Shown: positions 17,652 to 47,257 of the stretch, piece after piece
Numbering within the stretch: the first letter of the stretch is position 1
Layout: every line of letters begins with the position of its first letter
NCBI RefSeq assembly: GCF_004023665.1
Contig: NZ_SAUF01000001.1
Location: 186,001 to 250,000, forward strand
Direction of reading: 5' to 3'
Length of the DNA stretch: 64,000 nucleotides
Source: Afifella aestuarii
GTDB lineage: Bacteria > Pseudomonadota > Alphaproteobacteria > Rhizobiales > Afifellaceae
Notes under the pieces: generated by a model
The model's input: only the letters and a program-made list of their open reading frames with translations
Database searches by the model: none
Told to the model about the DNA's origin: nothing
Made by a program: the position numbers and the translations under genes

Positions 17652-17667
17652 TTAAACGCTTGTTAAC
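17652..17667. promoter_or_regulatory. CtrA box upstream of ftsK
   Basis: TTAA-ACGCTTG-TTAAC matches the full CtrA consensus TTAA-N7-TTAAC exactly. The 3' edge of the ftsK leader is 55 bp away on the minus strand. CtrA is the alphaproteobacterial cell-cycle regulator, and direct control of division genes is known from Caulobacter and rhizobia. Control of ftsK here is inferred from position. Confidence 0.7.
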
Positions 17668-44371: not shown

Positions 44372-46441
44372 CTAAATGATCGGCGACCCCTGCGGGAAGA
44401 GCCAGGTGCCGCCGTCGGCCCACTGGCGCTCCGGCAGACGGGCGCGGAACCACTTCACCATCGCGTAGTAGAAGCTCTCCTCGCTGCGGGCGGGCGTGCG
44501 TGCCGCAACCGGAGCCTGGGCCGGCGCCTGCATCGGGCGCTGCTGCCTCACCTGGATCGGTCGGCCGGCCTGGCGCGGAACGCTCGGCACCGTGCGATAG
44601 ACGCGGGCACCGTTCTGGGCGGTTGCCTGGGCCGTGTGCGCCGCGGGCTTCTGCTCTGCCGGACGGACGCTCGGGAAGAGCCAGGACGAACCATTCACGC
44701 GCGTCTGTGCGACGCCGTTTGCGCGGCTTGACGCCTGCTGGGGCTGTGCCTGGCGGGTCGCACGGATCGGTGCGCCGGCGTTCGAGCGGTAGAGATACCC
44801 CGCGGTCGCGACACCGTTCGTGGCGCGAGCGGGCGCGGCCTGGCGAGCATTCTGCTGAGCCGGCCTTTGCGCCGTCTCAGCCTGTGCACGCGGATGTGTG
44901 CCCGGGAAGAGCCAGCTTGTCCGGCCTGCACTTGAAGTTTGAGCCGGTTTCGCGGGTTGCGATTGGGCAGACTTGCCGTTGGCCTGAGCCTGGGTGCGCT
45001 GATGCGTGCCAGGGAACAACCAGCTTCCGCCAGCCGCAGCCGGCTGGGCCTGCTGTTGGGCGGCCTCTTGCGCGCCGTTCTGTTTCTGTGAGCCGTTCTG
45101 AACTGCAGCAATGCGATAAAGCCAGCTTCTCTGCGGCGTGCCATTGACGGCTTGCGCTTGCGGCTCGGCTTCGGCGGCCTGGCCGCGCCCATTCGGGAAG
45201 AGCCAGCTGCGCTGAACCACCTGCTGGGCCGGCTGCGCAGCCTCGGCTTTGCCGTTCGTGCGCGCTGCGCCATTCTGCGGCGCGGCGTTGCGGTAGAGCC
45301 AGCTCGCCTGCGGAGCGCCGGTCTGGCGTGCGGGTTCGGCTTTCTGGCCGGACGCCTGCGGTTGAGGCGCAGAATTGCGATAAAGCCAGCTCACCGGCGC
45401 CTGAGGCTTCTGCGGCTCGGGCTTTGCATCTTCCTTCGCCTTGGAGCCGCCCGTGAACCAGCTGCTGATCGTCTGGAGGGGCGACCCGAGCGACGATGCC
45501 TCGGTCTTGCTCTTTTCCTTGGCTTCGGCGGCGAGACGATAAACCCAGCTCATCACTTCGGCCGGGGTCGACTGCCCGGCCTCTTCGCTCTCCTGCGGCG
45601 CAGGCTTGCGATAGAACCAGCCCTGAGCGGCCGACACTGCGGTGTCCTTGAGCGCCGCCTTGCCGTTTGCATGGCCGTTCGCCTTGCCATTCGCCTGTGC
45701 GGCAGGCTTACGGAAAAGCCAGCTCGACGGGGTCTCGGCGGGCGCAGCCTGCGGAGCGGGGGTCGCCGTGCCGTTGGTCTGCGGCGCGGCGGGCTTGCGG
45801 TAAAGCCAGCTCGGAGAGGTTTGTTCTCGAGCCGGTGGTGCGGCTTTCGCCGCGGCGGCGGGACTCTGGGCAGGCGCAGTCCGCGCCTGTGGGAAGAGCC
45901 AACTGCCACCGTTGTTTGGCGCTCGGGCCGGCTGGCCGCGCGCGCCATTCACCGGTTGGGTGGCGGGCATCATGTTCCTCGTGTTGATGGGCTGAGAGGC
46001 TGAGCGGTTCGCGGACGGGCTGAAGGGGGGACTGCCCCCGTAGGCCGACCTTGGTGTGGGCGCCTGCGATTGACGGGCCGGGCGCGCGGCCGAAACTTGA
46101 TTGTCATGCAAAGACGCAGCCGAAGCGGGGCGCGCCCTGCGTGGCCGAAGCCAGCTTGCCTGCTGTTCGTCGCCGCGGCGATCGCCGCGCGAGATGTTGG
46201 GGGTTTGGATGTCGCGTGTCGTGCGCGGCGACCCTACCGGATGAGGGGTTGCCGGATGCGGGACTGCCGGACGAGATGCGACAGCGACGCCGTCAGAGCA
46301 GGCGGCCGGCCCGTCCTGCCGATTGAGACGGCTCGTCAGGTTCCGACGAAAGAGATCTGCGATCTCCCGCATCGGCTCCTGCAGCCGTTTGGCGACCATG
46401 TCCTCCATCGAGAGGCCCTGCCTTATCGCGATCGTCATCAT
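44372..46441 (-). CDS. Repetitive disordered protein with about 17 SWLYR/SWLFP motifs, unrecognised family
   Basis: I do not recognise this family. From ATG 46441 the product has 689 residues. Residues 1-42 look like an amphipathic, basic helix (MMTIAIRQGLSMEDM...). The rest is low-complexity Ala/Gln/Pro/Asn/Lys/Arg-rich sequence with almost no other hydrophobics and one cysteine. Set in it are about 17 copies of a short aromatic motif, centred on W97, W181, W212, W241, W275, W299, W328, W352, W381, W413, W440, W474, W510, Y549, W587, Y615 and W680, mostly 24-39 residues apart. Two classes recur: SWLYR-x-x-A (Arg after the aromatic) and SWLFP (Pro after it, often GTH or QxR next). No signal peptide or membrane segment is seen. 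A TTG at 46456 is an alternative start. The role is unknown. The design resembles a multivalent scaffold or linker protein (inference). Confidence 0.8.
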   Translation of the reverse strand: MMTIAIRQGLSMEDMVAKRLQEPMREIADLFRRNLTSRLNRQDGPAACSDGVAVASRPAVPHPATPHPVGSPRTTRDIQTPNISRGDRRGDEQQASWLRPRRARPASAASLHDNQVSAARPARQSQAPTPRSAYGGSPPFSPSANRSASQPINTRNMMPATQPVNGARGQPARAPNNGGSWLFPQARTAPAQSPAAAAKAAPPAREQTSPSWLYRKPAAPQTNGTATPAPQAAPAETPSSWLFRKPAAQANGKANGHANGKAALKDTAVSAAQGWFYRKPAPQESEEAGQSTPAEVMSWVYRLAAEAKEKSKTEASSLGSPLQTISSWFTGGSKAKEDAKPEPQKPQAPVSWLYRNSAPQPQASGQKAEPARQTGAPQASWLYRNAAPQNGAARTNGKAEAAQPAQQVVQRSWLFPNGRGQAAEAEPQAQAVNGTPQRSWLYRIAAVQNGSQKQNGAQEAAQQQAQPAAAGGSWLFPGTHQRTQAQANGKSAQSQPAKPAQTSSAGRTSWLFPGTHPRAQAETAQRPAQQNARQAAPARATNGVATAGYLYRSNAGAPIRATRQAQPQQASSRANGVAQTRVNGSSWLFPSVRPAEQKPAAHTAQATAQNGARVYRTVPSVPRQAGRPIQVRQQRPMQAPAQAPVAARTPARSEESFYYAMVKWFRARLPERQWADGGTWLFPQGSPII
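44387..46156 (-). repeat. Protein-level repeat array of SWL[YF][RP] motifs
   Basis: The nucleotide copies are degenerate (for example AGCTGGCTTTATCGC-like variants with changed third codon positions), so conservation is at the protein level. The spacing of motif centres is about 30 residues over most of the array, with a long gap of 84 residues between the first two and 65 before the last. Confidence 0.75.
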
Positions 46442-46787
46442 GTCGAAGAAACGCAACAGGAGTGCAGCCGAACCGGATTTGGCCGAATTCGGCCAAGTCC
46501 GTCGATTGCAAGATGGATTCTACAACGATTCACGCCTTTTCTCCAGGAGGGGCTCTGATCGAAACCGTCGCGGAGGTGAATTGAGTCGGCGCCGCGGGTC
46601 CTGCGCCCTGCTGGGAGCGCGGATGAGCGCTCTTTCGTCCCGTCCCGTCCGCGCGCTTGTGCCGCTGCGCAGCCGTACCCGGCGCTCAGCAGTCCATGCA
46701 CAAGGACAAACGGTGCTGGCATTCAAGTTTCCCCTTCGAAAGCACGCCTGGAATGTGGCTTTTCAATCCACTGACACCGGCGAGTCT

Positions 46788-46815
46788 AACCTGTCAAGAA
46801 TCCTCCAGACAGGTT
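46788..46815. promoter_or_regulatory. 28-bp inverted repeat
   Basis: AACCTGTC-N12-GACAGGTT is a perfect 8-bp dyad. It lacks a T-run on either side, so it is more like an operator or RNA stem than a terminator. Confidence 0.5.
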
Positions 46816-46855
46816 TCGTACTCTACTGACTCTGGATCATGTCACCGAATATTTC

Positions 46856-46871
46856 TTAATGAATAATTAAC
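46856..46871. promoter_or_regulatory. CtrA box in the gap upstream of the repeat protein
   Basis: TTAA-TGAATAA-TTAAC matches the full CtrA consensus exactly. A TTAAC half-site follows 24 bp later. It lies 415 bp upstream of the repeat-protein ATG and about 390 bp upstream of the VOC gene, in an AT-rich stretch. Confidence 0.6.
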
Positions 46872-47257
46872 GCTAGTAATGGTGGAAGTATTAACCAAAC
46901 TGAACCGCGTGAGGCAGAGTCACCATAGGTCCGCCAGCAGAGGAGTCGGTTCTGGCGCGAACAAGTTGTGGCGGGTCGCCCGAGGGCGGATCAGGCGAAA
47001 AGCCGCTGCGCCATACCTGCTATCGACGCCGGCAATTTCGCCAGGTCTGCACCTCCTCAGGACGTGGCAGCGCCAACTTTTCGGCGCGAAAGCCTGCAAA
47101 ACTGCGCGAATTGATTCGCTTTTCGCACCAAAAGGAGGATGAGCTCCCTCCGGAGGCCTGCCCCCAAGGAGACGATTGCGAGGTCCGTTCGCAGCGGACA
47201 CAATCTCTGTGGGGGTCTTCCACGCGCAGACACAGCTTACGAAGGAAAGCGCCGGCA

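Follow-up and report, generated by a model that had tools for sequence, protein, structure and literature searches.

An apparently genus-restricted, mostly unstructured Afifella protein with many Trp motifs, probably a binder of membranes or of a partner protein

We analysed a stretch of 64,000 nucleotides from Afifella aestuarii (positions 186,001 to 250,000 of contig NZ_SAUF01000001.1; hereafter the window), in which an open reading frame on the minus strand (44372-46441; start ATGATG at 46441, stop TAG at 44372) encodes P0001, a protein of 689 amino acids. Between residues 180 and 683 (44393-45904, minus strand) the protein carries an array of short motifs of the form W-L-aromatic-R/P, of which a script counts 14 copies with the looser pattern [WY][LFVI][FY][RPFGL] and 13 with the strict pattern W[LFV][FY][RP]. 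SWLFP occurs five times and SWLYR four times, alongside single copies of SWLFR, GWFYR, SWVYR, GYLYR and TWLFP; the tetrapeptide WLFP is present six times, and the remaining eight of the 14 copies end in Arg. When P0001 was shuffled 2000 times, the strict motif appeared 0.01 times on average and never more than once. An earlier reading of the sequence alone had reported about 17 motifs roughly 30 residues apart. The 17 corresponds to our count of Trp residues, of which 13 lie within strict motifs, three belong to what we judge to be degenerate copies (SWLRP, residue 97; SWFTG, 328; KWFRA, 664) and one, Trp 674, has no resemblance to the motif; gaps between motifs range from 24 to 93 residues (median 34). 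That reading was also right that codon usage varies among copies, whose 15-nucleotide stretches have a mean pairwise identity of 0.71. Its extended form SWLYR-x-x-A stands for P0001, where Ala follows at that distance after all eight Arg-ending copies, but not for the orthologue P0003, which breaks the rule, for example with SWLYRAAPK.

By letter count, Ala, Pro, Gln and Arg are abundant in P0001, which has a net charge of +47 (+43 in P0003) and no hydrophobic stretch, the best 19-residue mean being 0.42. As the sequence-only reading had expected, the chain is predicted to be largely disordered: the AF2 model has a mean pLDDT of 38.5, with 621 of the 689 residues below 50, values for which the shallow depth of the five-sequence alignment is partly to blame. 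Helices are modelled at residues 12-43, 293-317, 321-329, 654-668 and 672-675, and the six WLFP copies of P0001 are set in a stretch that AF2 models as disordered. The last two helices fall in an aromatic and basic C-terminal region (residues 652-676; 44414-44488, minus strand) that has a low dN/dS and that is not evident in an alignment with the two longer orthologues described below. No known family matched P0001 in Pfam (no match at E up to 10), NCBIfam, PDB sequences, PADLOC or PHROGs.

Orthologues were found in five of the 61 genomes searched. These are five of the 11 genomes of the family, all of them Afifella, with none in the six family genomes outside that genus: the window's own genome (G000), A. 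marina DSM 2698 (G001), A. pfennigii DSM 17143 (G002), another Afifella (G003) and Afifella sp. IM 167 (G004). G000, G001 and G003 form a close trio, the window's clade, as against the more distant G002 and G004, whose orthologues P0002 (1014 residues) and P0003 (991 residues) are considerably longer. The gene lies downstream of msrB at all four loci compared and near a gene for a VOC protein at three, and is followed by sdhB and a TPP enzyme at three (names by eye; the A. pfennigii contig stops shortly past the gene). The five species carry 13, 13, 14, 15 and 16 strict motifs while the linkers between them diverge. The sequence-only reading had held that a lack of homologues with conserved motifs would point to a frame artefact; such homologues exist, with 13 to 16 strict copies each.

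A wider scan confirmed three loci, all in Afifella. Among 397 genomes sampled from the order, a profile of the N-terminal domain matched the five Afifella genomes and one other (a 171-residue frame, E 8.4e-10). A codon pattern for pairs of motifs at a distance of 23-33 residues, which uses CTN Leu codons and could let more distant forms escape, gave 5, 5, 6, 3 and 5 matches in G000, G001, G003, G002 and G004, respectively, and 10 scattered matches in nine of 392 genomes outside Afifella; its reversed control gave about 33 matches by our count, none of them in Afifella. A tblastn search of plasmids with P0003 found no match, and of nine stretches in viral contigs that fitted a pattern, none was confirmed. 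Nor was a second multi-motif protein seen in the window's genome with two codon patterns, which cover part of the Leu codons: all eight matches to the pattern with AGY Ser codons fall within this gene, and the six matches to that with TCN Ser codons comprise one in this gene and five scattered ones. As far as these samples reach (397 genomes of the order and 385 of the class), the protein appears to be specific to Afifella.

Substitution rates among the three close species show that the frame is under selection. Whole-gene dN/dS for the three pairs is 0.236, 0.268 and 0.230, values on which we reject a frame artefact or pseudogene for the main open reading frame. Constraint is strongest on the motif codons (0.089, 0 and 0.077, from 7-8 synonymous and 0-3 other changes per pair) and on the last 40 codons (0, 0.033 and 0.088), compared with 0.253, 0.299 and 0.246 for the linkers. 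The first 45 codons give 0.217, 0.726 and 0.305, the middle value reflecting two synonymous and five other changes. Between A. pfennigii and IM 167, where overall dS exceeds 1, the motifs again score lower (0.146) than the linkers (0.345). P0001 is a real, selected and mostly unstructured bacterial protein, and the central claim of the sequence-only reading, a conserved multivalent disordered protein with its motif under selection, is borne out by orthologues in all five Afifella genomes and a motif dN/dS of 0 to 0.09.

The longer orthologues reveal what the window's clade has lost. At the N-terminus of P0002 and P0003 lie a hydrophobic helix (mean of 2.5 over 19 residues) and the Pfam domain DUF4760 (PF15956; 28.4 and 30.4 bits against a gathering score of 25), whereas the same model has no match to P0001 above the gathering score. 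The earlier description of the family as unrecognised therefore holds for P0001 itself but not for two of its orthologues. Likewise, the basic helical N-terminus that it described is present in the AF2 model (residues 12-43; 46313-46408, minus strand), but alignment to P0002 and P0003 places it within the surviving second half of a DUF4760-type domain, of which AF2 gives only a poor model (pLDDT 52). The membrane helix of the long form has positive residues after it and none before, and the tail is therefore predicted to be cytoplasmic.

In the three close species, the sequence preceding ATGATG (46442-46722, minus strand) can still be aligned with the opening part of the long form, which comprises the membrane helix and the N-terminal half of DUF4760, but the helix part is out of frame. 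An in-frame TAG (46520-46522, minus strand), common to the three close species, lies inside the domain remnant, and the sequence on either side of it aligns with a profile of the two long orthologues (E 5.8e-12). The alignments indicate that the domain is decayed in this clade and that the tail is translated from a new start at ATGATG; the ancestral form would have been anchored by the membrane helix, which a frameshift and a stop would then have removed. The ATG at 46722 lines up with an ATG in the start region of the long form; it now begins a frame of 94 residues (46438-46722, minus strand) whose TGA overlaps the ATGATG. We rejected this upstream frame as a selected protein, given that its variable sites in the three species (14, 24 and 18 at codon positions 1, 2 and 3, with no gap columns) lack a third-position bias; it may be a leader. 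Over the stretch above the TAG, the main frame has 15, 9 and 19 variable sites, a weak coding-like tilt that we do not count as evidence, and read-through of the TAG to give a working protein is disfavoured, since that stretch is frameshifted relative to the membrane helix. Inspection by eye reveals no evident ribosome-binding site ahead of ATGATG, where ribosomes possibly re-initiate in a coupled manner after the upstream frame.

The region upstream of this leader contains a full CtrA-type site, TTAA-N7-TTAA (46856-46870, minus strand), which is found upstream of the orthologue in all five genomes; its N7 occurs in three different versions among the five species. Two GANTC sites, GAGTC (46828-46832) and GATTC (46798-46802, directly before a TTGACA at 46792-46797 that is a possible -35 element), are conserved with the TTGACA in the alignment of the five genomes, and a third, GACTC (46782-46786), occurs in the window's clade only (all minus strand). 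The density of GANTC in the window is 1.6 per kb. Among the three close species, nine of 176 columns vary upstream of the leader as against 56 of 281 within it. The promoter also contains AGGATTCTTGACA, kept in all five species, and an element, GATTCTTGACA-N-GGTGTC, whose single match in the window's genome is this promoter. We further observed that the promoter as a whole (46723-46900) is nearly invariant and that AGGATTCTTGACA, followed further on by GGTGTC, is kept in the five species.

In Caulobacter, the full CtrA motif is described as TTAA-N7-TTAA and ftsK is among the CtrA targets; the podJ promoter carries a CtrA site with N6 spacing together with a GANTC site (PMC4287350), and the podJ and mipZ promoters bear marks recognised by GcrA (PMC3667746). 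A ctrA gene is present in the window's genome (421.7 bits, cut-off 350), and CtrA may well bind this box in Afifella. The box occurs 13 times in that genome, at 12 loci, and its reversed control nine times; the corresponding counts are 13 and 13 in G001, 18 and 10 in G002, 12 and 9 in G003, and 19 and 8 in G004, so that the control is clearly rarer in G002 and G004 and not much rarer in the window's clade. When loci were matched by tblastn (at least 50% identity over at least 100 residues, about 1.5 kb on each side) to the 18 sites in G002 and 19 in G004, a box stood beside the orthologous gene in both genomes for nine of the 12 loci and in G004 for 10 of the 12, compared with none of the nine control sites in either genome (10 control sites in G002, eight in G004), although the controls are unmatched for intergenic position. 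The locus studied here was matched in this comparison through its neighbour msrB, the gene itself having been matched in a separate search.

Besides this gene, the conserved set includes ftsK (by Pfam), ftsE (276.3 bits, cut-off 264.85), hemE (Pfam URO-D) and an outer membrane protein (Pfam). At the remaining loci the box adjoins a gene for MeaB, for a quinone oxidoreductase or for one of two enzymes named by best match below cut-off, an aminotransferase and a cyclopropane fatty acid synthase; which gene the box serves is ambiguous at some loci. A PBP1-type gene keeps its box in G004 and lacks it in G002; neither genome conserves the boxes of a CheY-like gene and of one remaining site. The promoter of the gene studied here looks cell-division-linked. 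A second box in the window (17652-17666) lies just upstream of ftsK on the minus strand, so that two of the genome's 13 sites fall within this window. The metabolic part of the presumed CtrA regulon was unexpected; at five loci (L048, L052, L055, L056 and L058) conserved boxes accompany hemE, the quinone oxidoreductase, the aminotransferase with an acyl-CoA ligase, meaB and the cyclopropane fatty acid synthase.

The motif itself is not without precedent, contrary to the sequence-only reading. In human VPS37A, a component of ESCRT-I, a disordered stretch holds a WLFP that inserts into membranes, preferentially those of high curvature; binding fell by as much as about 90% in mutants, and rose by about 650% in a construct carrying WLFP twice (PMC10942982). 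This is the sole literature precedent that we found, and we do not claim homology: VPS37A shares with P0001 an identical tetrapeptide in a disordered stretch, but is a eukaryotic protein with one natural WLFP beside a folded domain, whereas P0001 has six WLFP copies and eight that end in Arg. Of the three roles suggested by the earlier reading, a condensate, a polar hub or a membrane array, the membrane role has the best support. We conclude that P0001 probably grips membranes, or a partner protein, at many points and is made at a set time of the cell cycle. Our tentative choice, for which we would claim somewhat less than an even chance, is a protein specific to the genus, timed by the cell cycle and attached to membranes through multiple contacts. 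CtrA, perhaps with CcrM and GcrA, would time its expression alongside that of division genes, ftsK and ftsE among them. Each W-L-[FY]-[RP] would insert its Trp, Leu and aromatic side chains weakly into the cytoplasm-facing leaflet, assisted by Arg and acidic lipids, and the summed copies could coat or bridge membranes firmly, possibly in a curvature-sensitive way; there the chain might gather lipids, membranes or clients. Since many weak Trp motifs would bind the membrane themselves, the anchor would be dispensable, and its loss in the window's clade tolerable if the motifs alone hold the membrane. Many weak membrane-binding motifs would account jointly for WLFP, the basic chain, the anchored ancestor and the loss of the anchor with the tail still selected. 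Several observations weigh against this explanation: the resemblance to VPS37A extends over four residues and could have arisen by chance or convergence, eight of 14 copies end in Arg rather than Pro, and a membrane role alone needs neither the strict residue order nor two endings. It is weakened by the non-division genes in the conserved box set (hemE, the outer membrane protein and the metabolic loci) and by a reversed control that is not much rarer than the box in G000, G003 and G001. The loosely held first 45 codons in one pair (dN/dS 0.726) and the lack of a visible ribosome-binding site before ATGATG also count against it.

The strict residue order, the two recurrent endings and the preserved number of motifs speak for the main rival, a CtrA-timed protein scaffold in which each motif would be a short linear element recognised by a single partner or by the chain itself, the many copies serving to cluster that partner. 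Predicted disorder and a promoter box in common with division genes are compatible with it, and PodJ, which is likewise linked to CtrA and GANTC, offers a bacterial precedent in that its disordered region acts in condensates and client recruitment (PMC9684454, PMC4287350). PodJ differs in having coiled coils as well as a disordered region, whereas P0001 has a repeated Trp motif and no family match; the likeness is one of working and of promoter (a CtrA site with GANTC). No partner was found, no second multi-motif protein was seen in the genome with the two codon patterns tried, and WLFP is already known as a membrane binder (PMC10942982), leaving a scaffold a serious but doubtful candidate. 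The box in common with ftsK and ftsE, and that of the PBP1-type gene (in G004 but not G002), could instead suggest a division- or cell-wall-linked factor. ZipA, the membrane tether of FtsZ, combines a membrane helix with a flexible chain rich in Pro and Gln, and the long form resembles it in having a helix and flexible chain, although with many repeated Trp motifs and no other Pfam domain. A comparable bridge between membrane and divisome is improbable, since a common regulator is weak evidence for a common machine, hemE and metabolic loci carry the box too, and the gene is restricted to one genus as far as we searched.

A nucleic-acid binder, whose basic chain would hold RNA or DNA through Arg and aromatic stickers, would suit the net charges of +47 and +43 but sits poorly with an ancestral membrane helix and a Leu conserved in the motif; we regard it as very unlikely. 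Still less probable is a tail outside the cytoplasm with a TonB- or FtsN-like topology. Although P0002 and P0003 do have one N-terminal hydrophobic helix followed by a Pro/Ala-rich tail, the charges flanking that helix predict the opposite orientation, and in P0001 the tail is under selection with no hydrophobic stretch left (0.42). The frameshifted 5' half, the TAG common to the clade and the want of an evident ribosome-binding site could be taken to mean that the gene is decaying and untranslated in the window's clade, but we give this hardly any credence: the main frame is open in three species at a dN/dS of 0.23-0.27, its last 40 codons stand at 0-0.09, and the promoter is nearly unchanged (nine variable columns of 176, against 56 of 281 in the leader).

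The layout of P0001 is that of EPYC1 and CsoS2, Rubisco linkers in which short binding motifs are spaced along a disordered chain, although the motif of these proteins differs from that of P0001. A similar role found no support in Pfam, NCBIfam or PDB sequences; P0001 has no Pfam match, shares its promoter box with ftsK and ftsE, and neighbours msrB and genes for a VOC protein, sdhB and a TPP enzyme. As to PodJ and PopZ, P0001 has no Pfam or NCBIfam match, and P0002 and P0003 match only DUF4760 (Pfam). Membership of the PodJ, PopZ, CsoS2 or EPYC1 families is thus not supported by these comparisons.

If the protein does bind membranes, a more specific role is possible but speculative. Confinement of the photosynthetic membranes to the vicinity of the poles has been published for A. 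marina and A. pfennigii, whose bacteriochlorophyll patterns resemble that of Rhodopseudomonas palustris; in the latter, the lamellae keep close to the poles and track cell growth and division. The available portion of the source names no determinant of this polar restriction (PMC6030561). Because it is genus-specific, timed to the cell cycle as its promoter suggests, membrane-binding on our preferred explanation and multivalent, the protein is a candidate organiser of the lamellar photosynthetic membranes of Afifella, scheduled by CtrA, whose WLFP- and WLYR-type motifs would zip membranes together or hold them near the poles, with one set passing to each daughter cell. We rate this as a slim chance, as Rhodopseudomonas and Rhodoplanes share the pattern and our genome searches turned up no orthologue beyond Afifella. 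Whatever its role, bacterial multivalent disordered proteins are easily missed since they offer no fold to match, and the value of this one lies in a countable motif under selection, a promoter that hints at timing and a tetrapeptide that inserts into membranes elsewhere. With the anchor kept in two species and lost in three, the genus also provides a natural experiment.

DUF4760 itself extends beyond Afifella. Among 385 sampled genomes of the class, 15 had a match with E no higher than 0.001; fourteen of these matches exceed the cut-off and lie in open frames of 163-284 residues, and the weak one lies in a frame of 870, while P0002 and P0003 begin with the domain and continue into the long tail. 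The window's genome has a second, different frame of DUF4760 type (G000:C2:973189-973434), open over 276 residues and without the motif tail.
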